Source: Paracyclopina nana (Eukaryota > Arthropoda > Copepoda > Cyclopoida > Cyclopettidae). Taken from it: 64,000 bases of DNA. Positions within the stretch are counted from its first letter, which is position 1, and every line of letters starts with the position of its first letter. Location of the stretch: positions 1,307,001 to 1,371,000 of the forward strand of contig JAGUCH010000008.1 of assembly GCA_019096065.1 (NCBI GenBank), read 5' to 3'. The notes under the pieces were generated by a model. That model worked only from the letters and a program-made list of their open reading frames with translations, ran no database searches and had not been told where the DNA came from. Positions 3,001-48,082 of the stretch are shown here, one piece after another. The position numbers and the translations under genes are program-made.

Positions 3001-3015
3001 ACTCAATTTGAATTC
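1..3015 (+). repeat. 169-bp satellite array with 513-bp higher-order unit
   Basis: Tandem monomers of 169 or 175 bp beginning GCACCGTGGTATAC. Monomer starts are at 1, 170, 345, 514, 689, 858, 1027, 1202, 1371, 1884, 2397 and 2910. From 858 onward the same three variants (169+169+175 in rotating order) recur every 513 bp exactly, so this is a higher-order repeat. Variants differ at the junction before the conserved AAAACTTGCGCA (CGCAAAAGCG, CGCATTCGCGAAAGCG or CGAACAAGCG). Each monomer carries one TGAGTCA and one TGACTCA. The array starts outside the window and degenerates after about 2940. No gene is present. Confidence 0.97.
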
Positions 3016-3019
3016 GCAA

Positions 3020-3430
3020 GAGGATGGCAAAAGGAAAGACCAAGTTTTTTTGTTGCTACAGGTCCCTCGCGCGCGCGCGCCCGGAAAGCTTTGGTCGGCG
3101 CTGGGTGCGCACACCGGCCCGGCTCGCTTCCAGCGGGTCTGGGTGAGCACAGTGAGGACGCGAAAGGAAAGACCAAGTTTTTTTTGTTGCTAAAGCTCCC
3201 TCGCGCGCGCCCGGGAAGCTTTGGCTTGCGTAGGGTGAGCACGCCGGCCCGGCTCGCTTCCAGCGGGTCTGGGTGAGCACAGTGAGGACGCGAAAGGAAA
3301 GACCAAGTTTTTTTTTTGCTACATGTCCCTCGGCATTGGGTGCGCACGCCGGCCCGGGTCGCTTCCAGCGGGTCTGGGTGAGCACAGTGAGGACGCAAAA
3401 GGAAAGACAAAGGTTTTTTTCGGCGGGCCC
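3020..3430 (+). repeat. GC-rich tandem repeat, 105-134 bp unit
   Basis: Four units begin with AAAGGAAAGACCAAGTTTT at about 3029, 3163, 3293 and 3398 (spacings 134, 130 and 105). Each has a poly-T stretch, CGCGCGCGC-type dinucleotides and a conserved GCTTCCAGCGGGTCTGGGTG block. The base composition is strikingly richer in GC than the flanking AT-rich satellite. Open frames on both strands here are by-products of the repeat and look unlike proteins. Confidence 0.9.
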
Positions 3431-3590
3431 ATTTTGGGGATTCTGTGTTTTGTGCAGTCATGATGCTAATTGGATGCGGGCGTGCTTATTTCGGGAATTC
3501 TGTGTTCTGTGCTTGATTCGTTTGTGATGCTCAATGGATGCGGGCGTGCCTATTTCGGGGATTCTGTGCGCTGGATATCTGGCCACTGCC
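3431..3590 (-). mobile_element. Truncated end of the same transposon as at 40,948-47,924
   Basis: Positions 3548-3590 match the right terminus of the large element (47,882-47,924) almost base for base, ending in CTGGATATCTGGCCACTGCC. Just upstream, 3431-3547 holds two more degenerate versions of the motif ATTTCGGG(G/A)ATTCTGTG about 60 bp apart. No partner terminus GGCAGTGG is seen on the left, so this is a solo or truncated end embedded between satellite blocks. The satellite resumes immediately at 3591. Confidence 0.75.
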
Positions 3591-5705: not shown

Positions 5706-8700
5706 ACAAGGTGATTGGGAAAAAAGAGGCAAAACTAATTTATGTTTGGGTGGTGATCAGAAAAAAAGACCAAATCCAAAATCATTTTGGGTGGTGATGG
5801 GTGGTGATTGGGAAAAAAGAGTCAAAACAAAATTCATACTTGGGTGGTGATCAGAAAAAAAGACCAAATCCAAAATCATTTTGGGTGGTGATGGGTGGTG
5901 ATTGGGAAAAAAGAGCCAAAACGAAATTCATATCTGGGTGGTGATGGGTGGTGATTGGGAGAAAAGAGGCAAAACAAAATCCATATCTGGGTGGTGATGG
6001 GTGGTGATCAGAAAAAAAGAGGCAAAACGAAATTTATGTTTGGGTGGTGATGGGTGGTGATCAGAAAAAAAAGACCAAATCCAAAATCATTTTGGTTGGT
6101 GATGGGTGGTGATTGGGAAAAAAGAGGCAAAACGAAATTCATACTTGGGTGGTGATGGGTGGTGATCAGAAAAAAAAGACCAAATCGAAAATCATTTTGG
6201 GTGGTGATGGGTGGTGATTGGGAAAAAAGAGCCAAAACAAAATTCATACTTGGGTGGTGATCAGAAAAAAAGACCAAATCCAAAATCATTTTGGGTGGTG
6301 ATGGGTGGTGATTGGGAAAAAAGAGCCAAAACGAAATTCATATCTGGGTGGTGATGGGTGGTGATTGGGAGAAAAGAGGCAAAACAAAATCCATATCTGG
6401 GTGGTGATGGGTGGTGATCAGAAAAAAAGAGGCAAAACGAAATTTATGTTTGGGTGGTGATGGGTGGTGATCAGAAAAAAAAGACCAAATCCAAAATCAT
6501 TTTGGTTGGTGATGGGTGGTGATTGGGAAAAAAGAGGCAAAACGAAATTCATACTTGGGTGGTGATGGGTGGTGATCAGAAAAAAAAGACCAAATCGAAA
6601 ATCATTTTGGGTGGTGATGGGTGGTGATTGGGAAAAAAGAGCCAAAACAAAATTCATACTTGGGTGGTGATCAGAAAAAAAGACCAAATCCAAAATCATT
6701 TTGGGTGGTGATTGGGAAAAAAGAGGCAAAACGAAATTTATGTTCGGGTGGTGATGGGTGGTGATCAGAAAAAAAGACCAAATCCAAAATCATTTTGGGT
6801 GGTGATGGGTGGTGATTGGGAAAAAAGAGCCAAAACGAAATTCATACTTGGGTGGTGATGGGTGGTGATCAGAAAAAAAAGACCAAATCGAAAATCATTT
6901 TGGGTGGTGATGGGTGGTGATTGGGAAAAAAGAGCCAAAACAAAATTCATACTTGGGTGGTGATCAGAAAAAAAGACCAAATCCAAAATCATTTTGGGTG
7001 GTGATGGGTGGTGATTGGGAAAAAAGAGCCAAAACGAAATTCATATCTGGGTGGTGATGGGTGGTGATTGGGAGAAAAGAGGCAAAACAAAATCCATATC
7101 TGGGTGGTGATGGGTGGTGATTGAGAAAAAAGAGGCAAAACGAAATTTATGTTTGGGTGGTGATGGGTGGTGATCAGAAAAAAAGACCAAATCCAAAATC
7201 ATTTTGGGTGGTGATGGGTGGTGATTGGGAAAAAAGAGGCAAAACGAAATTCATACTTGGGTGGTGATGGGTGGTGATCAGAAAAAAAAGACCAAATCGA
7301 AAATCATTTTGGGTGGTGATGGGTGGTGATTGGGAAAAAAGAGCCAAAACAAAATTCATACTTGGGTGGTGATCAGAAAAAAAGACCAAATCCAAAATCA
7401 TTTTGGGTGGTGATGGGTGGTGATTGGGAAAAAAGAGGCAAAACGAAATTCATATCAGGGTGGTGATGGGTGGTGATTGGGAAAAAAGAGGCAAAACAAA
7501 ATTCATATCTGGGTGGTGATGGGTGGTGATTGAGAAAAAAGAGCCAAAACAAAATTCATACTTGGGTGGTGATCAGAAAAAAAGACCAAATCCAAAATCA
7601 TTTTGGGTGGTGATGGGTGGTGATTGGGAAAAAAGAGGCAAAACGAAATTCATATCAGGGTGGTGATGGGTGGTGATTGGGAAAAAAGAGGCAAAACAAA
7701 ATTCATATCTGGGTGGTGATGGGTGGTGATTGAGAAAAAAGAGGCAAAACAAAATTCATATCTGGGTGGTGATGGGTGGTGATTGAGAAAAAAGAGGCAA
7801 AACGAAATTTATGTTTGGGTGGTGATGGGTGGTGATCAGAAAAAAAGACCAAATCCAAAATCATTTTGGGTGGTGATGGGTGGTGATTGGGAAAAAAGAG
7901 GCAAAACGAAATTCATACTTGGGTGGTGATGGGTGGTGATCAGAAAAAAAAGACCAAATCGAAAATCATTTTGGGTGGTGATGGGTGGTGATTGGGAAAA
8001 AAGAGCCAAAACAAAATTCATACTTGGGTGGTGATCAGAAAAAAAGACCAAATCCAAAATCATTTTGGGTGGTGATGGGTGGTGATTGGGAAAAAAGAGG
8101 CAAAACGAAATTCATATCAGGGTGGTGATGGGTGGTGATTGGGAAAAAAGAGGCAAAACAAAATTCATATCTGGGTGGTGATGGGTGGTGATTGAGAAAA
8201 AAGAGGCAAAACGAAATTTTTGTTTGGGTGGTGATGGGTGGTGATCAGAAAAAAAGACCAAATCCAAAATCATTTTGGGTGGTGATGGGTGGTGATTGGG
8301 AAAAAAGAGCCAAAACGAAATTCATATCTGGGTGGTGATGGGTGGTGATTGGGAAAAAAGAGGCAAAACAAAATCCATATCTGGGTGGTGATGGGTGGTG
8401 ATCAGAAAAAAAGAGGCAAAACGAAATTTATGTTTGGGTGGTGATGGGTGGTGATCAGAAAAAAAAGACCAAATCCAAAATCATTTTGGTTGGTGATGGG
8501 TGGTGATTGGGAAAAAAGAGGCAAAACGAAATTTATGTTTGGGTCGTGATGGGTGGTGATCAGAAAAAAAAGACCAAATCCAAAATCATTTTGGGTGGTG
8601 ATTGGGAAAAAAGAGGCAAAACGAAATTCATATCTGGGTGGTGATGGGTGGTGATCAGAAAAAAAGACCAAATCCAAAATCATTTTGGGTGGTGATAGGT

Positions 8701-8770
8701 GGTGATTGGGAAAAAAGAGCCAAAATGAAATTCTTATTTTGGGTGATGATGGGTGGTTGGGAAAGAAAAA
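5706..8770 (+). repeat. Minisatellite of GGTGGTGAT modules, about 3 kb
   Basis: Built from two modules: GGGTGGTGATGGGTGGTGAT + TGGGAAAAAAGAGGCAAAAC + GAAATTCATA..., and GGGTGGTGATCAG + AAAAAAAGACCAAATCCAAA + ATCATTTT. Modules alternate into longer blocks repeated at about 410 bp (for example 6008-6289 and 6418-6699) and 662 bp (7174-7401 and 7836-8063). The strand is strongly purine-rich on top. Open frames on both strands encode only reiterated peptides. The last unit decays at 8730-8770. Confidence 0.95.
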
Positions 8771-19234: not shown

Positions 19235-20458
19235 TAAGGTAAGGGCCCGAGGGCCGAGCCCGAGGGCGAACTACGGGCCCTGGCTGCCCGAGGGCGGGGT
19301 CAGGGGCGGCCCAGGGGGGGCATAGGGCGTTGGAAAGTTGGCTGAATTAGGGTACAGCAATTCCCCTTGCTCGGTTGGGGCTGGCCGAATTTCGGCCGCT
19401 CGGGCCGAGTTTGGCCGGCGGGCAGGTTTGGGCTGTCAATTCACCAATTTCCTGCTGTTCTATGACGAAGACAAGCAAGCTGCATTATCATAGGAGTGAA
19501 GTAAGCTGCTAATGCTGCTGCACCATGATATTACACTAGATGTGAGCATGGTCCCTTTTTTCAGCTCTGAAATGATTGTCAAAGTCGGGCTAGGGTTGAT
19601 TAAACGGTTGGCAGTAGTGCAGGTTTTTGCTAAGGGTTTTCCTTGGTTCCATGTCAGCTGATTGCAATTGGCTGAATTCTGGTTTTTCCAACCAATGCAA
19701 CCATACTAAAACCATGAATGTTTGTTTTAATTTTGGAATATTTATGTCTGTTGCTTTTAAAAAGTGCCCAATTTTTTTTTTACTCTAGGGTTGAATTTTT
19801 CGGCTTGTCTCTTGTTTTAGCCTAGATTCGCATAAAGGGGAGTAAATGTCTACTTTTTCACTTTTGAATGAGTGCAAGGTTATAGTATAAATGAAAGTTT
19901 ATACAATGGTTTTTTGTAAGGTTAATAATTCATGCATAAGCCCACTCTTCATTCATAGCATTCATTTTCACTGACCTTTTATCATCATTTTCGAAACATA
20001 AGACTTGTTTTGAGACCTTTTAACGTTTTTCTTACCTTAACCTTACCAGGCTTCAATTTTTAAAAAGGTATTTATTATGCAGAAAAAGGCTTGGTGCGTA
20101 TATAGTCATCAGTTCTGTTTAAACTGAAAACGTGTTTAGCATATAGACAGCATTTCGTCATGTAGGCTAGATATGACATAAGGACACATTCGGTGAATCA
20201 TAACTTGATGTGATTTCACAGCCAAAATTCATGTAGATCTCAAATAAAACGGAGAAAGCTGCATGAATGCACTTTTCCCATAACCCTCACATTCATGCCC
20301 TGCTATGGAAAAATGGGAGCTTTTTCACTAGAGCTTTTTACGAAGAAGAGCATTCCTTAAACGAAGTCCTTCTTTGAAGGAAAAATAATGAAGTTATCCT
20401 TGCAGATAGTCGATTCCCAACTCTGAACCACACTGGGTAGACGCACAGTGTGCCCAGG

Positions 20459-23400
20459 ATGTCTGGTCGTGGTCGAGGACTGCGAGCCAATTCAGGCACC
20501 TCCTCCTCCTCTTCGAACGGTTCCAGTCCTGCCCCAGGACGGTCAACCGCTTCGCGTCAACTCGGAGGGGGGAACACTTCAACTCGGAGCTCTTCGGGGT
20601 CACCGTCCCAACGTACAAGGAGCCTGACCCCTTCGTCCAAGAAGGCCCCAACGACGGGTGTGGTCACTCCAAAGATTGCAAAAGTCACTCCGACAAACAG
20701 CCCAGGCCAGGCCAAGATGATGGCCAAGCCTTTGCCCGCTGAAGGGAATCCTATGACCAGTCCCGCTCCCATTCCGGACAAGCGAAGGAGTTCTGCGGAG
20801 GAGCGAAGGCGAAAGAGTCGCCGTCCCAAGTTTCAGGACAACCCTCCGGCTCCTGAGATTGTGGAGAAGAAAGCCTTGCAATTGGCCTCGGCCAATGAGG
20901 ATGACAAGTCTGAGGAGACTGCCAAAAGCGACATGATGGATGTCGATGAGGACGAAGAGGAGGTGGACGATGACGAGGAAGCATCCCTACTTCGGCAGCT
21001 CGAGGAAACGCCTTTGAAGGAAGATACAGATGGCTGTGAGACCACAAAGACCAACGGTGTCCACCATGATACAAATGGTGATGATGAGGACACCCTTGCC
21101 CCCATATCAGAGACGGTGTCATCGCTTGTCGATGACATTGTCAAGCAAATCGACAGCGAAACCCTCAATGGCAGTAGTGCACACGAGGCCAAAGAAGAGG
21201 GTGGTTCGGAGTCATTGCTTGTCGTGTTGGGCAAAGAACTGAAGCAGGCTGTGAGTGACTTTGCTGAGGCTGATGAAGACTTTGATGAGGCTCTACTAAC
21301 TCGGTGCTTGATCAACCGAGTCCACTCAGTGTTTAGAGGACGTAATATTCGTGATAGCTGCCCCCCTCCCATTGACAAAGTGGCATTGTCAGCAGATTTC
21401 TTCAGAGATATTTTTTTGCCAATGCAAGCAAGTGCCAGTGTCACTGAGGAGTTGGCCAAGTGCATCATTCAAGCCGGTCAGCTAAAGACAGAACAACATA
21501 ACAACACCATACCAGAGCTTAAGAAAGAGGAAACCGAGGATGACTCTTCCATCATCAGTGAACCTCCCGAGTTACTTTCGCAAGTCGATGGAGTCGACTC
21601 GTCTGCCGAGACCAGATCGGAGGATCCCAAGGATGAGGACAAGGATCAAGAGGAGCTTAAAGAGGAGTTGGACAACTCCGAAACAATGAAGTGTGACAAG
21701 CAGAAAATTCTATCTGAGATGGAGAACAAATTTGCCAAAGAGACTCAGAATGCCTTAAAGCACAGGCCGGTGTACAAGAAGAGGAACAAGTCAGAGAGTT
21801 GGGACTTTAAGAATGGCAGCGAAGATGATGATCATCATCAATCCTCGTCTGCCGATAAGATCCTACTCATGAAGGAGCCAGGTGAACTGGAGGTTGTCGA
21901 CAACAATGTCAATGAGGATGACCAAGATGAGAACATGCCCCTCCACACCTCATCCACCAGTTCCACCACATGCAAGTCCCTGCGGAAATTTCGCAAAGGC
22001 TCAAGGAACTCCTTGTCGACATCTTCAATCGATGTCGTGATGGATGACCATGAAAGCGAAGGTGGGCCCAAGTCCAGAATGGTCCCCATGTCACCCCCTC
22101 CCCCTCCGCTTACCCCGGAGGTGGGGCCTTCTACCATGCCACTTCGCATTGACATTCCGGATCACTATTCGTCCTCAACGCCTTCCTTTTCGGGAGGGTA
22201 CCCAAGGCTTCCGAGTGGTGCACGAGGGTACCAAAGGCTGCTCACAAGGACACCCCCAGCTGCCAGAAGTGGGATGAGTGCCTCATTCTCAGAGGCTGTC
22301 GTCACCAAGGAAGATGCTGAAGTTGCTGCAACCGCCATCAAGACCTCACCGGTTCCTCCGGTTGTTGTTCCAATGAATGTTGTCTGCTCGAAGCCCTCAA
22401 ACGATGAACACCCCTCCCTCAAAATCCGGCTGCCCAAGGTGGCAGCCCCTAGTGGAGGGAACAACTTAGTGATAACCTCAACCAGTGTGGCTGTGTCAAC
22501 CCCACATCACAAGAAGGTGCCAAAGCGGAGGAACCTCCAGCCCGAAAGCGATGGAGTTGACACCGAAGAGGAGGTGATGCTTGAGCCCAAGCGCAAGAAG
22601 TTGATGTCTGAAACCATATCTGAGCCAGAAAGGAGCTTAGTCTCTGCTGATGAGGAAACGGATGGGGGTGGCAAGACCACTCCGGACAGTCAGATCACAA
22701 GCGATGACAAGTGAGTACACCTACTTATACGGCCTTGCGTGAAAATGTGAAGGTAGCTCTTCGCTTTGCTTCAAGCTCAACTCCTAAGGTTTCTTGCCTG
22801 TAATCAGAGCCTGTTGCCAAAACTAGCTGTAATTGGCTTAAGTTCTACATTGGCAGAATATCTATTCATTTTTTCAAATGCATGCTTTTTGGTAACAAAG
22901 CGAAGAAGGACTTTCCTAAAATTGGAGCCTTTTTTATGGTGCCTTAGCGAAGGATTTCCCTACATGATTTATTCCTGTTTGAGTTATCTGGCATATAGAG
23001 TCTCATGGGGGCATGAAAACAAGACAGAAAGCCCCCAAAAGCGCTCTGTATAAATATAGATGCGTTAGATGATTTAGATAGCTGAGATGATCATCATTTA
23101 TATTTGAACCGTCTTCTGATGATTTTTGACAATCCTCATCTCTATTGGGACTTTTACTTACCTGTGCTCAAGTGCGGTATAAATATAGATGATTCTTGGA
23201 TTAGCCATCTACAATAGACCAAATATAGATAATTTTTTACTTTAACCAAGCTCAAGCAAATATGATGGCTTTAGATAGATTGCTCCTTATAATACTTGGC
23301 TCTTTTAAAATCTGTACTTAGGAAATACAATTAGAAAGGTTATAATCCCTTTTCATTTTATGGTGAGGAAAATCCAAGAATTCCTCATTAAAGAACTAAA

Positions 23401-26400
23401 ATAATAGCTCTAATTTGATAGGGCCAAAAAGCTTGAAAAATGTTGATCCAGAAATGCAATATTTCACTTGATTTTTATTCCAAAAAAGTATTTCAATAGT
23501 AAAAGTTGGATTTTTTTGCTCACTTCTCATGCTTCATTTATCAGTTGGAAAAGTACAATTTTTTAAGGAAATTCTTATGAAACTATTAATTTTAATTTCT
23601 TTTAAGTTAGATTATTATATAATTTGGTCAATTCGCAATTGAAATGTATTTTAAAAATATTTTGGGTCTGGCTTAAAGTAGCTAATTGCAACCACATAAA
23701 ATTAGTCCATCATCTATAAATCATAAAATCATCTTTATTAAGGCCAAAAATGGTACAACTATCGATGACAAAGATGCTCATCTAACGCATCTATATTTAT
23801 ACAGACCCCCGAAAAGTATGGGGATTCGCTATACTGCAGGACCTTTCCTCGCTTTTATATGCAGTGAAAGTCACTACCAAGCCCAGAGGGAGAATTGAGC
23901 CAGTTGAAGTAAAAGGGGATTTTTAAACGTTTTGGACAGGTTCCAAAAAGCAAACTTTTTCTTTATCCTGCTGTAGCATCAATTTCATAGATTTCTACGT
24001 ACAACCCAAATGATGAGAGCTCGAAAGGGAGAGAGAATTCACTTGAGCTGCCCCCTTTTTAAGGGAAGGAAAGCAGGAGCAATTGTGGAATATCATGGCC
24101 GCTTTCTCATCCCAGACAGTCTCCACACTGTGCCATTGGTGTCACCAAACCCCCCGCTTATTTTGCCTTGAGTCATCCTTGGCAAAATCCCTAATTTCTG
24201 CTCAATATGAGAATGTAAAAGAACCATTTGCTTCAGTTGCTTTCTAAAACCACAATTTGTGTGATCAGAATCTAAAGAATTCAAATTTGCAAATTTAGTT
24301 TCGCTTTAAAATTGAGTATGTCCACTTTTAGCCAAAGTTGAGCAAAATATGATTTTAGTCCAAGCTTCAAACAACCTGAAATTGCTTAAGAGCTGCTAGT
24401 ATTCTATGAAGTTTTGAAAGAGAAAGCATCTCACATTGATAATTGGTGATTTTTTTTGTGTGTTCTTCTATGGGGATGTCCCCCACTGTGCTTTCCATCT
24501 CGCATGGAGGCTGTCCCTGCGTTGCTTTGGCTGTTGTGTCGACGACAGCTGCAGCTGATTTTGGTTGTGCACAGTGTTGTGAATCATTGTTTCCACTTGC
24601 AGGATCATGGTGCCTGAAAAAGCCTCCAGCTTCAAGATTCATCCAGAGAGGACCTGTTCAGACTGCTGCTTCTACTGCAGGCAAAAATTTGGCCTCTTCG
24701 ATACCCCACTCCACATTTCGCAGATGAAGTCACAAGAGATCCAAAAGTTTGCAGTGCAATACTCCAACTGCAGCAAGGATGCTTGCCTCTGTGACAAGTG
24801 CTACCGGTTGGTGGACCGCAATGCCAGGACACTCAAAAGGGAAGCGGAGGGGGAGAGTTCAACCGGTCTGGAAAAAGTCAGGTCATGCATTGTCAGGAAT
24901 TGCAACAAGGAGGTAAACAATTTTGCACACTAGATGGCAGCCTCAGTGCTTTCCCTTTCTTCATGCGCAAACTATTGAGTCCTACATGTCACTCTTCAAC
25001 CTTCAACCTTCTATTCCACTTAAGACATCATATTGAACTATCCTTTTCTTGCATTCTGGATGTCAACTGTTTCATAGATGGGAAGCTGACCTAGATTCAG
25101 TAAAGCAGGCTCAATGTTGATGCATATACTTCTTTCCCCTAGGTGACTCATACAGTGAATAAGAAGTGGCTGCACAGGCTCAAGAAGAGGCTGATCAAAA
25201 AGTTCATCACTGACTGGGACAGAATTGCCAAGGCCTCGATGAAAAGCTCCTTCCCTGTGTGCACCAAGCACAACACCATCATTGAGTACTACAGCAATTG
25301 CGGCTTGTGCAAGAAGAAGTTGTCGGTGAACGCCATCTGTTGTCTTCGCATGAACAAGATTGAGGTTCAAGAGCTCAACGAGTTGCTGAGGGCTGACTCC
25401 ATTCCGGCTGGATTGGCTGAGACCATGTTTGTCTGCAAGCTCTGCAAGACATTTTGTGGGATCAAGCAAAAGGCGGCCGCAGAGCCCGATTACCTCAAGA
25501 CCCACAAGAATCACAAGCTCTTCCTCAAGGAGCACAAGCGAAGGTGAGCATAACACTAAAAAAGTAATCTCTAAGGCCAGTCACTGATGTGTTCAATTTC
25601 AGGTTGTACAGTTGCCTAGGCTTGGACACTTCGATGGGCGATGACTTGTTGACTTCACCGGATAGCACGAGTGGATCACCCGGCAGTGCTGCAAAGCCGC
25701 AGAAAAAGATCCACCAAGTGAGCAGCCAGTCTGACAATCCCACCAAGATCACCATCAAAACATTTGAAGTCCCCTCAAGTCATCCAGACAGGCCAAGTCG
25801 AAAGCGAAGGCAAAAAGAGTTTGCTTCGCCCAATAGCGACTCAAGGATCATTGTCGTCAGCCATGATCCCACAACACCTGTTGCCTCCACCAGTAAGCCT
25901 TCCAATGACGTCAAGTCCAAGCCATCCTCAAATAGTCACACAAACGGGCCTTCAGTGGCCTCAGTGACAACTGGAGGAAAGCCTTCAACGTCTTCTTCGT
26001 CAGTCGATGAGACACCAGAGTCCTCTTCATCGCAACTGCCCATGTGCTCCATCACCATCTCGTTTGATCTCAACACCCAAAAGCTGTGGGAAGACCTGCA
26101 TTCACCCTACGAAAACTACACATCCTTCTTCAGGCATTTAATCCTGCTCGAAAAGTATTTTCGCAATGGAGACCTTGTGCTCTCCGATACTGCCAGTACC
26201 AAAGCCAGCAATTACTTCAAGAGCATCCAGAACCGGATTGAGGACTATGAGGTGAAGCACAAAAGGTCGAAAGCTGATCTGAGTGCAAGTACTCGGCCAG
26301 ACCTGAGTGTCCCACCTGCACCCAATCTACTGCACCTGCCTTTCCCAATTGCGGAACCACCAACAACAAGGCAAAGAGCTTCTTCGCAGGATGAGGCAAA

Positions 26401-27874
26401 CGATGGCTCAACCATCTTGAGGATACCTAAAGTGAGCATGCCTTCATCGACACCTCCGCAGGCCTCACCACCCCCAATGCCTACCAAGATTAGGGTGAGG
26501 GATGACCTCATGTACATTGGGCTAATGGCCAAGGAGTCGAACATCATGACCAGCTCGGAGGGCTCTGCAAAAGCTAGCAGTCAGCTGGCAGAATTGGCAA
26601 ATCAGGCTCACAAAGAGTCGAATTTGATGCAGATCCTCAATGATCCAACCCTGAAGCAGCGAAGTTCCAACTCAAACAAGGGACCAACTTTGGGCAAAAC
26701 TTCATTAGTGGCCACAAGCAGCAGTGGTAGTAGCAAGTCCAGTAACAGTCAGCTCTTTAAGAATTCTGACTCTTCGGGATCCTCAGCCATTCCCCTGACC
26801 TTTAACAATAGCATCGCAGAAGTGCTTGCGGCTGCAGCCAAGAGCAAGTCCAGGGAATTGCACAGTCAGCAAGACAGCAGCGAAAGGAAGTCATCAGAAG
26901 TTACAATCACTGCCAAGAGCACAAGTGGACACACCTCGGGTAGTAGGACTTCTACCAGCACCTGGTCTCATGCTTCCGAAAAGGCGAAAAGTAGTGTGGT
27001 ACCTCCCTACCCTTCACCTCTAGGGAATGAGAAGGTCAATCCATTAATGGACATGAGCAAGCTACTGCAGAAGCAACCACCTGGTATTGCGCCTCACATC
27101 ATAGCCCAAAACACCCTGGCAATGCCCACATCTGTGGTGACCTCACCCAAGTCATCGATCTCCACCCATCAGATGGCTGGGACAATGCCCAAAATAGCTC
27201 CCAAGCCCAACCGGCCTATCCCTGTACATCATCATCATAAGCCACCTCAAGTCATTCCGTCGACCAGTACATCCTCTTCGATGCTTCATTCGAATAAGAA
27301 AAGCCTCAACAATATCCTGGACCGGTTAAGCGGAATGAAGAGTAGTGGGAGCACAAGCGGGTCTTCTTCATCGGCTAGCTCTTTGGTGCAGCAGCTTCAA
27401 GCGCCTCCAATCATGTCCAATCCTGGCCTGACATCCCCCTCCAAGGGTTCCAGGCCCTCAGCTAGTAGCATCCAACAGCAGCAGAACCAGCAACAGGCCG
27501 CCCTTTCCCAGAGCCTTTCCCTGATGGCTTCGCAGGGTCTCCTGGGTATGGGGTATCCGGGAAGCGGTCTTCCCCAACCCCTGTACCCCTGGACCGCCTC
27601 CCCCGCGACAAGCCCTCAACAGCAAGCGGCCATGGCTGAGGCCCAACGAGCCCTGTCGATGGCAGGTGCAGGGCTTCCAGGGATGAACCAGGCAGCTGCT
27701 GCAGCTGCTATGGCTGAACTGATGAAGATCAGCTTACATGCCCAGCAACAGGTAGCCAAGAACTCAACTCAGCAGCAACAGCAGCAGCGAATACGAGCCC
27801 CACCCCCCTTGACCCATATGGGCAGGCCGGGCAGCAATGGACCGAATAACAAGCCCAAGCCATCAGCTGACTAA
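20459..27874 (+). CDS. Large low-complexity nuclear-type protein with central Cys-rich core
   Basis: Four coding exons, 20459-22710, 24603-24912, 25143-25543 and 25603-27874, join in phase to 1,744 residues. The N-terminal 750 residues are Ser/Pro-rich with acidic runs (DVDEDEEEVDDDEEA) and basic patches (PKRRNLQPESDG, EPKRKKL). Exons 2-3 encode a compact conserved-looking core of about 230 residues with CxxCxxC, CLCDKC, CxxxC, CGLCKKK and CKLCKTFC pairs, consistent with a multi-zinc module, followed by a basic KTHKNHKLFLKEHKRR stretch. The C-terminal exon has a folded-looking segment (ITISFDLNTQKLWEDLHSPYE...) near residue 900-950, then Ser-, Gln- and Ala-rich tracts and HHHHK. A chromatin or transcription role is inferred from composition only. 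I do not recognise the family. The frame continues a few codons upstream of the ATG, but only through a GTG. Confidence 0.8.
23045..23805. mobile_element. 761-bp element with perfect 28-bp terminal inverted repeats
   Basis: Within the first coding intron of the large nuclear-type gene, the 28 bases at 23,045-23,072 (TCTGTATAAATATAGATGCG, then 8 more) are the exact reverse complement of 23,778-23,805. Internal copies of TATAAATATAGATGATT occur near 23,180. No transposase frame is present, so it would be non-autonomous. Both flanks contain CCCCC(A/G)AAAAG, but an exact abutting target duplication is not visible. Confidence 0.7.
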
Positions 27875-39564: not shown

Positions 39565-42500
39565 CTATGGGAGAGTTCTCCTAAAAAAGTCCAGCATGGT
39601 TTGCCAGGCCTTGATTTGGCCCAGGGAATGAAGGTGAATGTCAGAGCCTCCCATGTTCACTCTGTTCCTTGGATACATCACTAGGTTGGTCAATGTGGTT
39701 GGTGGGCTATTTGGCAAATCTACCAAATGACCAGTTCCAGGTAGCACCAAATGTTCGTTGTGTGGGGGATGGGTAACCTTGCCTAATTGGGACTTGACCA
39801 AGTCCTGGGAAGCCTTTTGAGGGCAGCACCTGTCATCTTGTCCATGAATGAAGAGGAAAGAGGCCTGAAAGTTAGACATTTGAAGGGCGCGTAGCGTTCT
39901 TTTTGTGTTTATGCTACCTTGCTAGTTTCGAAAGGAATCAAAGACTCCTTTTGGTCTGCAGCTCCATCAAACATTTGGGCAAACTCTATGGGATCACTGG
40001 TGTTTTCTAGCAATTCCGGTTGCTTCCACTTCCAAGCTTAATAAAAAATAAAGTATTTTGAAATGAGGAAAGAAAGACTCCGCTTACTTTTAAGCAGAGG
40101 GTTCCCTTTGTACTTGTAACTTTCACCTGTTGCAACAGGGATTCCATTGATGAATGTCACTGCTTTGACCTAAAATGTAATTGTTTTTAAATATTGATCA
40201 ACTAGCTAAAGCATGTCAACCTTGTTTGTTAAGTAAGTGGCCATCAAAAGTGCCAACTCAGCCCCTTTGGAAATGCCCACAACTCCAATGGAGTCAAAGC
40301 GTTCCATCAATAAATCAATAGCTTCCTCAAAGTAGTCAAGTTCTAGAAAAGCCAATCAAGCAAATGAATCAAGCTTTTTTTTTAATGAAAAAATGTGTAC
40401 CAAGATTGAGGTAATTTTTGGGCAAATCATCCACTCCAAAATATGCCAAGGCCAATGATGCAAATCCTCTTGAAGCCAACAAGGCTGACCTTTCTTCAAC
40501 AACTTTGCCCTTGTGAATTCCTCCATAGAGAGTGATTATGCACTTATTTCCTGGATTGTCTGGCAAAAAGAGTGTGCCTCTCACTCTACCTGCCTGAAAA
40601 GCAAAAAATAAAGGCTGGCCTTGAAATTATGCTACTGCTTTGATTTCCACCTTGATTTCTTGCCTGTGAACCTGAGCAGACATGATTTGCCTAATCACAG
40701 TTTTTTGCATGCTATTGCCATTTTCATTGCTTAGACTGAATTTGCAATAGTAAGGCTGAGTCACATCACTTGTCCACAATCTTGGGGCTGATCCTGGCTT
40801 AGGTGTCAAATTCCATAACAATGACAAGGCCTTTTCACCCCGAAGGTCAATTTGGCCTTTGCCATCAGATTCCAGCATATAAGATGAGCCAAAATTGATA
40901 TTTGTGCTGTTATAAAAGTCCACCTCCATTTTGTCTTAAAAAATATCGGCAGTGGCCAGATATCCAGCGCACAGAATCCCCGAAATTGGCTCGCCCGCTA
41001 CCAAGCTAGGCAAGTGCAACAAAAAGCTCAGATCGCGCGCCTTGCCCAGCTTATTGAATGCACACAATCACCAAAATCAGCTCACCCAAAAAAGCTATGC
41101 TCCCAACCCCAAATTTCTTGTCCTCATGTGCTCAGGGGGTCAATGATCTGCTAAAATTCATGTGCGGGGTCAATGACCTGTTTAAATTCTCGCGCGCCCT
41201 CTATTCAGCGCTTTAATGCCGGCCCGCCAGGAAAAAACTTTTTTCTAGCCAAATTACTTGTCCTCATGTGCTCAAGGGGTCAATGAACTGATTTAATTCT
41301 CCGGCGGGGTCAATGACCTGTTTAAATTCTCGCGCGCCCTCTATTCAGCGCTTTAATGCCGGCCCGCCAGGAAAAATTTTTTTTCTAGCCAAATTTCTTG
41401 TCCTCATGTGCTCAGGGGGTCAATGACCTGTTAAAATTCTCGCGCGGGGTCAATGACCTGTTTAAATTCTCGCCCGCCCTCTAAATAACGCTATAATGCC
41501 GGCCCGCCTGTACAAAACTTTTTTCTAGCCAAATTTCTTGTCCTCATGTGCTCAGGGGGTCAATGACCTGTTTAAATTCTCGCGCGCCCTCTATTTAGCG
41601 CTTTAATGCCGGCCCACCAGGAAAAAACTTTTTTCTTGCCAAATTTCTTGTCCTCATGTGCTCAGGGGGTCAATGACCTGTTTAAATTCTCGCACGCCCT
41701 CTATTTAGCACTTTAATGCCGGCCCACCAGGAAAAAACTTTTTTCTTGCCAAATTTCTTGTCCTCATGTGCTCAGGGGGTCAATGACCTGTTTAAATTCT
41801 CGCGCGCCCTCATTTCAGCGCTTTAATGCCGGCCGGCTAGGAAAAATCTTTTTTCTAGCCAAATTTCTTAACCTCATGTGCTCAGGGGGTCAATGACCTT
41901 TATTCAAGTTTCGCTCCCAGTTCAAAAAAGTTACCAAAAAATATGCTAGTTTCAGTTAGTTTTTGCACTGGGAGACTAGTCTGGTAGAACTAGGTGAAGC
42001 AAAGGCTTAATTTTGGCCTTTGTCAAAAAATGCAATTTTGCTCCAGTAAGTAATACGTTACGCGAGTTTCGCTCCCAGCTCAAAAAAGTTGCCAAAAAAT
42101 ATGCTAGTTTCAGTTAGTTTTTGCACTGGGAGACTAGTCTGGTCAAAACTAGGTGAAGCAAAGGCTTAATTTTGGCCTTTGTCAAAAAATGCAATTTTGC
42201 TCCAGTAATTACTCACGTTACGCGAGTTTCGCTCCCAGCTCAAAAAAGTTGCCAAAAAATATGCTAGTTTCAGTTAGTTTTTGCACTGGGAGACTAGTCT
42301 GGTAGAACTAGGTGAAGCAAAGGCTTAATTTTGGCCTTTGTCCAAAAATGCAATTTTGCTCCAGTAAGTAATACGTTACGCGAGTTTCGCTCCCAGCTCA
42401 AAAAAGTTGCCAAAAAATATGCTAGTTTCAGTTAGTTTTTGCACTGGGAGACTAGTCTGGTCAAAACTAGGTGAAGCAAAGGCTTAATTTTGGCCTTTGT

Positions 42501-45500
42501 CAAAAAATGCAATTTTGCTCCAGTAATTACTCACGTTACGTGAGTTTCGCTCCCAGCTCAAAAAAGTTGCCAAAAAATATGCTAGTTTCAGTTAGTTTTT
42601 GCACTGGGAGACTAGTCTGGTAGAACTAGGTGAAGCAAAGGCTTAATTTTGGCCTTTGTCAAAAAATGCAATTTTGCTCCAGTAATTACTCACGTTACGT
42701 GAGTTTCGCTCCCAGCTCAAAAAAGTTGCCAAAAAATATGCTAGTTTCAGTTAGTTTTTGCACTGGGAGACTAGTCTGGTAGAACTAGGTGAAGCAAAGG
42801 CTTAATTTTGGCCTTTGTCAAAAAATGCAATTTTGCTCCAGTAATTACTCACGTTACGTGAGTTTCGCTCCCAGCTCAAAAAAGTTGCCAAAAAATATGC
42901 TAGTTTCAGTTAGTTTTTGCACTGGGAGACTAGTCTGGTAGAACTAGGTGAAGCAAAGGCTTAATTTTGGCCTTCGTCAAAAAATGCAATTTTGCTCCAG
43001 TAATTACTCACGTTACGTGAGTTTCGCTCCCAGCTCAAAAAAGTTGCCAAAAAATATGCTAGTTTCAGTTAGTTTTTGCACTGGGAGACTAGTCTGGTAG
43101 AACTAGGTGAAGCAAAGGCTTAATTTTGGCCTTCGTCAAAAAATGCAATTTTGCTCCAGTAATTACTCACGTTACGTGAGTTTCGCTCCCAGCTCAAAAA
43201 AGTTGCCAAAAAATATGCTAGTTTCAGTTAGTTTTTGCACTGGGAGACTAGTCTGGTAGAACTAGGTGAAGCAAAGGCTTAATTTTGGCCTTTGTCAAAA
43301 AATGCAATTTTGCTCCAGTAATTACTCACGTTACGTGAGTTTCGCTCCCAGCTCAAAAAAGTTGCCAAAAAATATGCTAGTTTCAGTTAGTTTTTGCACT
43401 GGGAGACTAGTCTGGTAGAACTAGGTGAAGCAAAGGCTTAATTTTGGCCTTCGTCAAAAAATGCAATTTTGCTCCAGTAATTACTCACGTTACGTGAGTT
43501 TCGCGCTCCCAGCTCAAAAAAGTTGCCAAAAAATATGCTAGTTTCAGTTAGTTTTTGCACTGGGAGACTAGTCTGGTCAAAACTAGGTGAAGCAAAGGCT
43601 TAATTTTGGCCTTTGTCAAAAAATGCAATTTTGCTCCAGTAATTACTCACGTTACGCGAGTTTCGCTCCCAGCTCAAAAAAGTTGCCAAAAAATATGCTA
43701 GTTTCAGTTAGTTTTTGCACTGGGAGACTAGTCTGGTAGAACTAGGTGAAGCAAAGGCTTAATTTTGGCCTTTGTCAAAAAATGCAATTTTGCTCCAGTA
43801 AGTAATACGTTACGCGAGTTTCGCTCCCAGCTCAAAAAAGTTGCCAAAAAATATGCTAGTTTCAGTTAGTTTTTGCACTGGGAGACTAGTCTGGTAGAAC
43901 TAGGTGAAGCAAAGGCTTAATTTTGGCCTTTGTCAAAAAATGCAATTTTGCTCCAGTAATTACTCACGTTACGTGAGTTTCGCTCCCAGCTCAAAAAAGT
44001 TGCCAAAAAATATGCTAGTTTCAGTTAGTTTTTGCACTGGGAGACTAGTCTGGTAGAACTAGGTGAAGCAAAGGCTTAATTTTGGCCTTCGTCAAAAAAT
44101 GCAATTTTGCTCCAGTAATTACTCACGTTACGTGAGTTTCGCTCCCAGCTCAAAAAAGTTGCCAAAAAATATGCTAGTTTCAGTTAGTTTTTGCACTGGG
44201 AGACTAGTCTGGTAGAACTAGGTGAAGCAAAGGCTTAATTTTGGCCTTCGTCAAAAAATGCAATTTTGCTCCAGTAATTACTCACGTTACGTGAGTTTCG
44301 CTCCCAGCTCAAAAAAGTTGCCAAAAAATATGCTAGTTTCAGTTAGTTTTTGCACTGGGAGACTAGTCTGGTAGAACTAGGTGAAGCAAAGGCTTAATTT
44401 TGGCCTTTGTCAAAAAATGCAATTTTGCTCCAGTAATTACTCACGTTACGTGAGTTTCGCTCCCAGCTCAAAAAAGTTGCCAAAAAATATGCTAGTTTCA
44501 GTTAGTTTTTGCACTGGGAGACTAGTCTGGTAGAACTAGGTGAAGCAAAGGCTTAATTTTGGCCTTTGTCAAAAAATGCAATTTTGCTCCAGTAATTACT
44601 CACGTTACGTGAGTTTCGCTCCCAGCTCAAAAAAGTTGCCAAAAAATATGCTAGTTTCAGTTAGTTTTTGCACTGGGAGACTAGTCTGGTAGAACTAGGT
44701 GAAGCAAAGGCTTAATTTTGGCCTTTGTCAAAAAATGCAATTTTGCTCCAGTAATTACTCACGTTACGTGAGTTTCGCTCCCAGCTCAAAAAAGTTGCCA
44801 AAAAATATGCTAGTTTCAGTTAGTTTTTGCACTGGGAGACTAGTCTGGTAGAACTAGGTGAAGCAAAGGCTTAATTTTGGCCTTTGTCAAAAAATGCAAT
44901 TTTGCTCCAGTAATTACTCACGTTACGTGAGTTTCGCTCCCAGCTCAAAAAAGTTGCCAAAAAATATGCTAGTTTCAGTTAGTTTTTGCACTGGGAGACT
45001 AGTCTGGTCAAAACTAGGTGAAGCAAAGGCTTAATTTTGGCCTTTGTCAAAAAATGCAATTTTGCTCCAGTAAGTAATACGTTACGTGAGTTTCGCTCCC
45101 AGCTCAAAAAAGTTGCCAAAAAATATGCTAGTTTCAGTTAGTTTTTGCACTGGGAGACTAGTCTGGTCTTGGGCAACTTGACTCATAGGCTTAGTCTTTC
45201 GCAAGTTTTGTAGAGTCACGCGATTTTTAAAAATAGCTCATAACATAAAACGTATTTAAATAGCAGCTATTTAAGTACGTTCAGAGGCTATTTAAATACA
45301 TTTTATGCTATGAGCTATTTAAATAGCGTGACAATACAAAACTTGCGAAAGACTAAGCCATAGTTTTGACTCATTTTGAATTGCAATTGCAATTTGAAAC
45401 TTGCGCATCGCGTTATACTACTCCATAACTGCTAAGAATGCGCGAAATTCTTGACTTGGCCAATTGTGAGTCAACAATTCAATGACAGCTGTTTATTTGA

Positions 45501-48082
45501 GGCAACTTGACTCATAATGTGAGGCAAAGTCAAACTTTTGACTCATTTTGAATTTGCAATTGCGAAAACTTGCGCATCGCATTATGCTGCTCCATAACTG
45601 CTAAGAATGCGCGAAATTCTTGACTTGGTCAATTGTGAGTCAACAATTCAATGACAGCTGTTTATTTGAGGCAACTTGACTCATAATGTGAGGCAAAGTC
45701 AAACTTTTGACTCATTTTGAATTTGCAATTGCGAAAACTTGCGCATCGCATTATGCTGCTCCATAACTGCTAAGAATGCGCGAAATTCTTGACTTGGTCA
45801 ATTGTGAGTCAACAATTCAATGACAGCTGTTTATTTGAGGCAACTTGACTCATAATGTGAGGCAAAGTCAAACTTTTGACTCATTTTGAATTTGCAAATG
45901 CGAAAACTTGCGCATCGCATTATGCTACTCCATAACTGCTAAGAATGCGCAAAATTCTTGACTTGGTCAATTGTGAGTCAAAAATTCAATGACAGCTGTT
46001 TATTTGAGGCAACTTGACTCATAATGTGAGGCAAAGTCAAACTTTTGACTCATTTTGAATTTGCAATTGCGAAAACTTGCGCATCGCATTATGCTGCTCC
46101 ATAACTGCTAAGAATGCGCGAAATTCTTGACTTGGTCAATTGTGAGTCAAAAATTCAATGACAGCTGTTTATTTGAGGCAACTTGACTCATAATGTGAGG
46201 CAAAGTCAAACTTTTGACTCATTTTGAATTTGCAAATGCGAAAACTTGCGCATCGCATTATGCTACTCCATAACTGCTAAGAATGCGCAAAATTCTTGAC
46301 TTGGTCAATTGTGAGTCAAAAATTCAATGACAGCTGTTTATTTGAGGCAACTTGACTCATAATGTGAGGCAAAGTCAAACTTTTGACTCATTTTGAATTT
46401 GCAAATGCGAAAACTTGCGCATCGCATTATGCTACTCCATAACTGCTAAGAATGCGCGAAATTCTTGACTTGGTCAATTGTGAGTCAAAAATTCAATGAC
46501 AGCTGTTTATTTGAGGCAACTTGACTCATAATGTGAGGCAAAGTCAAACTTTTGCCTCATTTTGAATTCGCAAATGCAAAAACTTGCACATCGCGTTATA
46601 CTACTCCATAAATGCTAAGAATGCGCGAAATTCTTGACTCGGTCAATTGTGAGTCAAAAAGTCAATGACAGCTGTTAATTTGAAGCAAGAAAAATTGAAA
46701 AGCTTAGTAGTAAGCAACTGACGCTTCTCAAAACAGATTGGCTGGCATTTAATCGCTTTTGTGAGGGCGCATGATAATTTTAACAGGTCATTGACCCCCT
46801 GAGCACATGAGGACAAGTTTTGTAGCAAGAAAAAAGTTTTTCTGGCAGGCCAGTATATAAGCGCTTAAATGAGGGCGCGCGAGAATTCAAACAGGTCATT
46901 GACCCCCTGAGCACCTGAGGACAAGAAATTTGGCTAGAAAAAAGTTTTTTCCTGGCGGGCTGGCATGAAAGAGCTGAATAGAAGGCGCGCGAGAATTTAA
47001 ACAGGTCATTGACCCCGCCGGAGAATTAAATCAGGTCATTGACCCCCTGAGCACATGAGGACAAGAAATTTGGCTAGAAAAAAGTTTTTTCCTGGCGGGC
47101 CGGCATTAAAGCGCTGAATAGAGGGCGCGCGAGAATTTAAACAGGTCATTGACCCCGCCAGAGAATTTAAACAGGTCATTGACCCCCTGAGCACATGAGG
47201 ACAAGTAATTTGGCTAGAAAAAAGTTTTTTCCTGGCAGGCCGGCATTAAAGCGCTGAAATGAGGGCGCGCGAGAATTTAAACAGGTCATTGACCCCCTGA
47301 GCACATGAGGACAAGTAATTTGGCAAGAAAAAAGTTTTTTCCTGGCGGGCCGGCATTAAAGCGCTGAAATGAGGGCGCGCGAGAATTTAAACAGGTCATT
47401 GACCCCCTGAGCACATGAGGACAAGAAATTTGGCTAGAAAAAAGTTTTTTCCTTGCAGGCCGGCATTAAAGCGCTGAAATGAGGGCGCGCGAGAATTTAA
47501 ACAGGTCATTGACCCCCTGAGCACATGAGGACAAGTAATTTGGCAAGAAAAAAGTTTTTTCCTGGCGGGCCGGCATTAAAGCACTGAAATGAGGGCGCGC
47601 GAGAATTTAAACAGGTCATTGACCCCCTGAGCACATGAGGACAAGTAATTTGGCAAGAAAAAAGTTTTTTCCTGGCGGGCCGGCATTAAAGCACTGAAAT
47701 GAGGGCGCGCGAGAATTTAAACAGGTCATTGACCCCCTGAGCACATGAGGACAAGTATTTTAGCAAGAAAAAAGTTTTTTCCTGACCAGCCGGTATAAAT
47801 GCGCTTAAAAGAGGGTGCGCAAGGATAGGCAGGGCGCGATCTGAGTTTTTTGTTGCACTTGCCCAGCTTGGTTGCGGGCGAGCCAATTTCGGGGATTCTG
47901 TGCGCTGGATATCTGGCCACTGCCAAAATATCAAGCACAGTTTTTTTTTTTGAGAAAAATTGAAATAACTTACATTTTGTCAATGGAGCCAAATTTGTGG
48001 CCAAAATGGCCAAATTTTCATCCACGAGGGACTTTTTGGGCCAAATGTTGAGGCTCTGCCTTAGAAAAGCTGAAATTTGCAT
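39565..48082 (-). CDS. Acyl-CoA thioesterase / BAAT family enzyme, gene split by a 7-kb transposon
   Basis: Hydrolyses acyl-CoA (or transfers the acyl group to an amino acid) in this family. Seven exons: 47974-48082, 40651-40934, 40401-40593, 40221-40342, 40088-40169, 39918-40036 and 39565-39864, giving 402 residues against about 420 in ACOT1/2/4 and BAAT. Exon 1 (PKKSLVDENLAILATNL) fits the family's N-terminal beta-sandwich opening. The T/AC phase joins it to KMEVDFYNST. The hydrolase core has EIK-AGRVRGTLFLP, GVVGISKGAELAL (nucleophile Ser; BAAT has Cys), HGQDDRCCP (Asp) and GTGHLVDLP (His), so a thioesterase is likelier than an acyltransferase. There is no peroxisomal SKL tail, and targeting is undetermined. 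Intron 1 is 7,039 bp because of the inserted element; all other introns are 44-107 bp. The gene appears intact if that intron is spliced. Confidence 0.85.
41100..41900 (+). repeat. Left subterminal array of the transposon
   Basis: About seven units of 110-140 bp: TTTCTTGTCCTCATGTGCTC, AGGGGGTCAATGACCTG, TTTAAATTCTCGCGCGCCCTC, CAGCGCTTTAATGCCGGCCC, GCCAGGAAAAAACTTTTTTC. It is the reverse complement of the array at 46,780-47,810. Confidence 0.95.
41901..45167 (+). repeat. 159-bp satellite array inside the transposon
   Basis: About 21 nearly identical units of 158-161 bp, each with CTCCCAGCTCAAAAAAGTTG, CACTGGGAGACTAGTCTGGT and TTTGCTCCAGTAATTACTCA. Variants at two sites (GTAGAAC or GTCAAAAC, and AATTACTCACG or AGTAATACG) are ordered so that neighbours share states, pointing to recent local amplification. 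TGGGAG and CTCCCA in each unit can pair. Confidence 0.97.
45188..45359. mobile_element. 172-bp palindromic MITE nested in the transposon
   Basis: GGCTTAGTCTTTCGCAAGTT at 45,188 is matched in reverse at 45,340-45,359. Inner arms GCTCATAACATAAAACG and TATTTAAATAGC also pair. It is flanked by ATA at 45,185-45,187 and 45,360-45,362, consistent with a 3-bp duplication (Harbinger-like). It sits at the junction of the 159-bp and 169-bp arrays. Confidence 0.8.
45363..46690 (+). repeat. 169-bp satellite relative inside the transposon
   Basis: About eight monomers of exactly 169 bp (starts 45,403, 45,572, 45,741 and so on) are homologous to the array at 1-3015. They share CGAAATTCTTGAC, AATGTGAGGCAAAGT, TTTGACTCATTTTGAATT and GCGAAAACTTGCGCA. 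Each has two TGACTCA and one TGAGTCA. Confidence 0.93.
46780..47810 (-). repeat. Right subterminal array of the transposon
   Basis: About nine units, the reverse complement of 41,100-41,900: GGTCATTGACCCCCTGAGCA, CATGAGGACAAG, AAAGTTTTTTCCTGGCGGGC and GAGAATTTAAACAGG. With the left array it makes inverted arms of about 0.8-1 kb. Confidence 0.95.

Follow-up and report, generated by a model that had tools for sequence, protein, structure and literature searches.

Introduction

Satellite-bearing elements with terminal inverted repeats (TIRs) are already known, the nearest that we found being Tetris, Galileo, Tm1 and the transposon-like elements of TCAST; the descriptions and comparisons given here follow the parts of the published accounts that are cited. 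Tetris, a foldback of Drosophila virilis, is non-autonomous, with arms of up to 1,735 bp that flank a variable middle domain and carry tandem repeats of about 220 bp, target-site duplications (TSDs) of 8-10 bp, and a transposase that was not found; three copies are structurally complete, and two allelic ones are unequal in repeat number (PMC4079207). Galileo, of the P superfamily in Drosophila, has long, internally repetitive TIRs (reaching some 1.25 kb and holding no more than three internal repeats), 7-bp boundaries, non-autonomous two-arm forms beside transposase-bearing copies, chimeras whose flanks differ, and a central region common to subfamilies with different ends (PMC3573991). Tm1, a Mutator/Foldback element of root-knot nematodes, has composite TIRs with tandem units of 13-15 bp, asymmetric 7-bp tips, a 9-bp TSD and a copy encoding a Phantom-type transposase (PMC3169594). 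In the TCAST transposon-like elements of Tribolium, at most 1,181 bp long and located in or near genes, the satellite lies inside the TIRs of a TIR-bounded unit, some with a 3-bp ACT duplication; of 68 TCAST-like elements, both types taken together, 29 are in introns (PMC3411249).

The element described here shares features with each of these, as far as the cited parts go. Like Tetris, it is non-autonomous, with tandem-repeat arms, an 8-bp TSD, a variable repeat number and a transposase that was not found; unlike in Tetris, the middle is itself satellite, made of two different units, 25 TSD-perfect copies were seen, and a copy without nested insertions (C1:11039710-11052974) reaches 13.3 kb. 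Repetitive inverted arms, chimeras with unlike flanks and a core common to subfamilies with different ends recall Galileo, from which it departs in its TSD (8 against 7 bp) and in that Galileo has transposase-bearing copies. With Tm1 it shares composite TIRs with tandem units and a short TSD, of 8 rather than 9 bp; with the TCAST elements, a satellite in a TIR-bounded unit, although the long arrays here form the core whereas the TCAST satellite lies within the TIRs. What sets it apart is the scale and place of the satellites, with core arrays of two units (S159 and S169 below) that form much of the element, a 159-bp core shared between subfamilies, and whole units of 7-9 kb in introns of 54-55 bp; among the matches listed in a search of open-licence PMC literature, by title and start of abstract, no paper describes the family.

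Judged by its sequence, the element is very probably a recently transposed, non-autonomous cut-and-paste DNA transposon of foldback-like anatomy, filled with satellite arrays. As such it would be a clear and, by its look, recent example of a cut-and-paste transposon spreading satellite DNA.

Anatomy of the element

The window, by which we mean the whole 64-kb stretch analysed (C8:1307001-1371000), comes from a genome that was searched over 92 Mb in 10 contigs. In window coordinates, the element, a member of what we call subfamily A, has the following parts:

40948..47924, no strand assigned: transposon, 6,977 bp, subfamily A
40940..40947, no strand assigned: left copy of the TSD, AAAATATC
47925..47932, no strand assigned: right copy of the TSD, AAAATATC
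40948..41042, plus strand: left TIR, 95 bp, from comparison of the termini
41058..41108, plus strand: 51-bp non-array spacer following the left TIR
41109..41907, plus strand: left subterminal array, units of 110/140 bp
41908..45167, plus strand: central 159-bp satellite (S159), 20.5 units
45168..45364, plus strand: 197-bp palindromic spacer
45365..46688, plus strand: central 169-bp satellite (S169), 7.8-7.9 units
46689..46739, plus strand: 51-bp non-array spacer before the right array
46740..47833, minus strand: right subterminal array, orientation opposite to the left one
47830..47924, minus strand: right TIR, 95 bp, sharing 4 bp with the end of the right array

A first-pass annotation of this DNA had reported near-perfect 95-bp TIRs around an element starting at 40934. 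The inverted termini, which begin GGYAGTGGCCAG, are real, but the opening 95 bases match the closing 95, read as reverse complement, at 89 positions, with perfect identity in the first 51, and the element proper starts at 40948. The exact 8-bp duplication that it had also reported is there, AAAATATC matching at all eight positions on both flanks, and its description of the element as non-coding and built almost wholly of tandem arrays holds as well: tandem arrays make up 92% of the element (TRF), and the longest stop-to-stop frame is 81 aa.

With ends GGCTTAGTC...GACTAAGCC, the palindromic spacer, which we read as an insertion in the first 169-bp unit, resembles a short inverted-repeat element. 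Matches to it occur in the window copy and in six other A copies (L009-L014), with none in the short copies L015 and L016 or in the part of a 53-kb copy that was read. An Rfam role for the element was considered and rejected, the best two matches falling on this spacer and all three lying far under the gathering score. A special fold of the 159-bp unit was set aside too: folded as a dimer, S159 reaches -84.5 on one strand and -81.4 on the other, where mononucleotide shuffles, the one kind compared, give -72.0 (sd 5.5) and -62.9 (sd 5.8) respectively.

Copies across the genome

At up to three mismatches, the 43-base terminus has 49 matches in the genome, against none for its reversed control, and the 21-base terminus has 137; a related terminus, GGCAGTGGCCAGGTGTCCAGC, marks a further group of ends. 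The first-pass annotation had named the lack of other copies with matching termini as evidence against its reading, and had proposed a search for 8-bp duplications at such copies. These exist: 25 of the 31 end pairs checked carry a perfect 8-bp TSD, and the duplicated sequences differ from one another. Orientation and distance had been used to pick 24 of the pairs before their TSDs were seen (sets of 13 and ten, and L047), and seven were assembled from single ends, five of these having a perfect TSD. The six pairs without one comprise L016 (7/8), L032 and two pairs in L019 (none), C2:186587/371078, an inverted duplication, and C8:1299212/1310590, with unlike flanks. Many single ends are partnerless, and where ends were combined in other ways, as in C1:11039710/11054202, the flanks are unlike.

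Among the 25 perfect TSDs, positions 3-6 are A or T in 22, 23, 23 and 20 cases respectively, position 2 is A in 13 and position 7 is T in 14. Long open frames elsewhere in the family lie inside arrays (in L026) or inside nested DNA (in a 30-kb copy); two frames of L027, of 280 and 180 aa, are located in array DNA and have no Pfam match.

Superfamily and transposase

The features of the foldback structural class are present: tandem-repeat inverted arms, an 8-bp TSD and a non-coding, non-autonomous body. Helitrons, DINE-1 included, are not known to have TSDs or TIRs, unlike this element, which has both. Mutator elements have TSDs of 8-11 bp, a range that takes in the 8 bp seen here; the 7-bp boundary of Galileo is not shared.

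Chances seem about even that the elements derive from a superfamily already described, one whose TSDs measure about 8 bp, as Mutator/Phantom-like foldbacks or as P-like elements, in which case their novelty would lie in the satellites only. Published foldbacks are mostly placed in Mutator, according to the part of the Tetris account cited (PMC4079207), the foldback Tm1, with its 9-bp TSD, has a Phantom-type transposase in the part of its description cited (PMC3169594), and the genome has transposase domains of both kinds, with MULE-domain matches at 5 places and P-like RNase H matches at 11. Against this, the four of the five MULE loci that were read, over about 1.5 kb per side, gave no close match to the terminus, just two 14-base matches with 3 mismatches; no MULE or P-like place falls between the ends of an element pair among the ends listed; and the TSD, at 8 bp, differs from the 9 bp of Tm1 and the 7 bp of Galileo. 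Of other superfamilies, Merlin (DDE_Tnp_IS1595, PF12762) has no genome match at E 0.001, with a control positive in one genome, while hAT (PF05699), whose TSD length 8 bp would fit, and KDZ (Zisupton and kin) have no genome match with controls that were likewise silent. No transposase was found inside the element copies read or linked to their termini. Because no MULE- or P-type domain was linked to these ends among the loci read and the ends listed, Merlin was not found and the hAT and KDZ controls are silent, we file the element as foldback-like by structure, on sequence grounds, and leave the superfamily open.

On the preferred reading, of a non-autonomous cut-and-paste transposon, a transposase made elsewhere would bind the termini, and perhaps motifs of the subterminal arrays too, excise the element and insert it at sites of the form NAWWWWTN.

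The host gene and other genes with insertions

The element lies in intron 1 of a gene on the minus strand, which we model with seven exons:

47974..48082, minus strand: exon 1, with ATG, 109 nt, phase 1, ACOT/BAAT thioesterase, from profile gain and decoys
40935..47973, minus strand: intron 1, 7,039 bp filled, 54 bp minus the element and one TSD copy
40636..40934, minus strand: exon 2, from the gene model
40401..40593, minus strand: exon 3, from the gene model
40221..40342, minus strand: exon 4, from the gene model
40088..40169, minus strand: exon 5, from the gene model
39918..40036, minus strand: exon 6, from the gene model
39565..39864, minus strand: exon 7 with stop, BAAT_C match in frame 39565-39921

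The model gives an uninterrupted protein of 407 aa, with introns 2-6, of 42, 58, 51, 51 and 53 bp, picked by hand from GT-AG pairs to keep the frame. Intron 1, with its donor at 47973 (GTAAGT) and its acceptor at 40935 (TTTTAAG), obeys GT-AG; once the element and one copy of the TSD are subtracted, 54 bp of it remain, and the insertion enlarges it about 130-fold. These sites and this length are those given in the first-pass annotation, which had called some 54 bp the usual intron size here, in agreement with the 42-58 bp of the other five introns; its further claim, that exon 1 restores the N-terminus of the ACOT/BAAT family in phase, is borne out by the domain profiles. Without exon 1 the protein matches Bile_Hydr_Trans (PF04775) at 36.1 bits over profile positions 27-125; with it, at about 48.6 bits over positions 1-125 of 126, exon 1 supplying positions 1-26. 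Where the real first exon scores 48.7 bits, decoy first exons reach 35.2-38.3 bits in the eight that were scored of nine shown in full (one low-complexity decoy being omitted) from 124 made; under a strict GTRAG donor, 23 kb of the minus strand hold six candidate first exons of matching phase, exon 1 included. BAAT_C (PF08840) matches at 60.2 bits, so that both domains of the family are present, and the 407-aa model matches ACOT2 (3hlk) over residues 68-405 (E 7.5e-37), a match that leaves exon 1 outside. Rebuilt in this way from the sequence, the gene reads as a complete ACOT/BAAT thioesterase. Searched against the genome in six frames, the first 138 residues match the gene's own locus alone, and there is therefore no close paralogue for comparison. 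Other genes recognised in the window are a phospholipid-translocating ATPase and a galactose-3-O-sulfotransferase, which with the thioesterase suggest an animal source; two further plus-strand frames, 20441-22714 (757 aa) and 25568-27874 (768 aa), have no Pfam match at E 0.01.

A second copy lies in the intron of a fucosyltransferase gene. This B copy (L026, 8,976 bp, TSD GATTTTAG) fills an intron that is 55 bp without it (GTAAAC...AATAG) and 9,039 bp with it. The downstream exon matches PF00852 at 136.6 bits and the upstream one PF17039 at 29.3 bits, the joined piece scoring 27.6, just below the curated cut-off of 28.7; joined, the two exons align across the junction with fucosyltransferase 9 (8d0o, E 2.2e-13). 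A third copy, L009, lies 107 bp past the donor of an exon that is probably of an ion channel, by a weak domain match (E 0.0015, under the curated cut-off). The survey of flanks took in 120 frames from 22 stretches, ten chosen frames being scanned. Taken together, the profile gain from exon 1, the decoys, the sizes of the other introns and the second copy in a 55-bp intron make insertion into an intron the supported reading of the sequence. On two occasions in one genome, a single step would have taken an intron of about 55 bp to 7-9 kb, with an effect on splicing that is testable. An annotation pipeline might, as the first-pass annotation supposed, lose exon 1.

Since the insertion leaves donor, acceptor and reading frame intact, the host gene would be expected still to splice, over 7 kb rather than 54 bp. 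The alternative is that the element is real but the gene broken, with exon 1 left unspliced and the gene either null or started at an internal ATG in exon 2. The geometry lends this some weight: 13 bp part the element from exon 2, the 41 bases with which the old intron began have been moved some 7 kb off, and, except for the restored GATATTTTTTAAG, what precedes the acceptor comes from the transposon, so that transposon sequence now stands where the branch point would be; moreover, the identical termini of the copies suggest recent activity, and decay of the coding sequence would therefore not yet show. Yet the T-run and AG of the acceptor have been restored by the target-site duplication, the modelled coding sequence of 407 aa is open, and so are the exons flanking the like insertion in the second gene. 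We consider a broken gene unlikely, though the allele with the insertion could be null or expressed at a low level.

Subfamilies and the shared core

Subfamilies A, B and C share a common plan, in which a TIR is followed by a subterminal array, a 159-bp core, an inverted subterminal array and a second TIR. The outer arrays have units of 110/140 bp in A, 131/133 bp in B and about 100 bp in C, in opposite orientation in the two arms. The A copies that were read have the 169-bp array, as do some B copies; it is absent from B copy L026 and C copy L047. Four subfamilies that differ in their ends have the 159-bp core in common, D being represented by one partial unit: 121 of the 159 consensus positions are common to A, B, C and that unit, and compared with the window unit the mean identity of units is 96-98% for A and 81-90% for B and C. 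In subfamily D all 10 pairs have a perfect TSD; interiors were sampled in two of the 10 copies, 120 bases each, one with the core satellite and one without.

Between the outer arrays, a GTCCTCA-TGTGCTCA block is common to the A and B units (reached in 0 of 200 shuffles), while the likeness of A to C is weak (5/200) and that of B to C is not distinguished (66/200). The idea that subterminal units are amplified tips of the termini was rejected, shuffles reaching the observed scores in 40 (A), 186 (B) and 21 (C) of 200 cases. The A-type arrays of the window (41109-41907 and 46740-47833) hold about 20 palindromes of the GGTCAATGACC type (RGKTCANTGAMCY), which we take to be the nuclear-receptor IR1 consensus; there are 20 RGKTCANTGAMCY sites in the element and none in the remaining window. 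A nuclear-receptor role was discarded, the two B copies and one C copy read having no such site (the C copy has four of a looser core).

At C8:1299212-1303967, a B-type left end leads through a 159-bp array to an A-type right end, and this A end is flanked by GAAATTCT, a string found within the 169-bp unit. Such a structure would result from the landing of an A copy in the satellite of a B copy, followed by recombination between the two cores. The left edge of the window is itself the end of another TIR element (C8:1299212-1310590; window 1-3590 together with L023 1213-9001), with a B-type right end at 3590 and a body that includes a 169-bp array and the B-left/A-right chimera; S169-like repeats flank it, outside TIR-bounded copies. 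At 5747-8757 the window also has a tandem array of about 3 kb, with periods of 53/105/409, that does not match the units of the element.

It might be asked whether the satellites, rather than the transposon, are the mobile unit of interest, transposon ends spreading arrays that later become free or act on chromatin or regulation. The S159 core shared by subfamilies with unlike outer arrays, and the S169-like repeats outside TIR-bounded copies, could be read in this way; but no S159 was found outside the element within the 64-kb window, and shared ancestry or exchange between elements explains the common core equally well. This account seems improbable. We entertain, tentatively and as a still rather doubtful proposal, that the elements form an undescribed lineage of satellite-carrier transposons: TIR units with a conserved 159-bp core would be moved by an unlinked transposase, recombination in the core would swap ends and outer arrays, and repeated landing in introns of 50-60 bp would expand these to 7-9 kb with the genes intact.

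Age and array length

Nine other A copies were compared with the window copy over the left 161 and right 110 bases. Five copies in all are identical over these 271 terminal bases (the window copy, L009, L010, L012 and the 53-kb copy); L011 differs at one base, L013 at one base plus gaps, and L014, L015 and L016 at more. The five nevertheless differ in their arrays:

Window copy: S159, 20.5 units; S169, about 7.9 units
L009: S159, 4.5 units; S169, 18.5 units
L010: S159, 16.2 units; S169, 7.9 units
L012: S159, 5.5 units; S169, 7.9 units
53-kb copy: S159, at least 50 units; S169, at least 40 units

Array length has shifted without any base change at the ends of the element. Growth or shrinkage of satellite copy number during transposition, gap repair or unequal exchange would account for identical-ended copies that differ many-fold in array length, and with differences of more than ten-fold in the 159-bp array between such copies, the rate and route of satellite growth become measurable. 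That an ordinary tandem array grew in place, its inverted ends and TSD being incidental, would suit a 92% tandem content and array sizes so unlike between copies, but is already refuted, to near certainty, by TSD-bounded copies, with a 43-base end at 49 places against none for the reversed control and perfect TSDs of differing sequence in 25 of 31 pairs.

Giant copies and rearranged ends

The TSD-flanked 30-kb copy at C3:1636274-1666723 (L029, L030 and L031) contains a nested LTR element of about 23 kb inside its 159-bp array. The direct repeats of this element, 918 bp long, are 100% identical, and one frame has an RVT_1 match; by the look of it, the insertion is recent. The 30-kb copy was rejected as a coding-rich autonomous element on account of the nested LTR element and of a 637-aa frame with 40 scored genome matches, itself included, at 95-100%.

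The 53-kb copy (C3:4075315-4128744) is flanked by the TSD CCATTTCA. Five 150-base samples of its interior are unmatched to the satellite units, and a DNA_pol_B_2 match lies inside. It was dismissed as an autonomous giant, the same 457-aa DNA_pol_B_2 frame occurring with near-equal score at three other places; it probably holds a nested Polinton-like element, which is the likelier of the two.

An apparent 184-kb element, C2:186587-371078, was likewise rejected, its flanks being reverse complements of each other, as in an inverted duplication. The region C2:175400-204889 has six left-type ends listed, spaced from about 1.7 to 15 kb; it is probably a duplicated segment carrying elements, the end at 186587 having an inverted partner, with mirrored flanks, at C2:371078. 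On C8, the right ends at 21529 and 139022 are flanked by CTATTTCG and CGAAATAG, which are mutual reverse complements; this could be an inversion of about 117 kb with a breakpoint in an element, or an effect of assembly.
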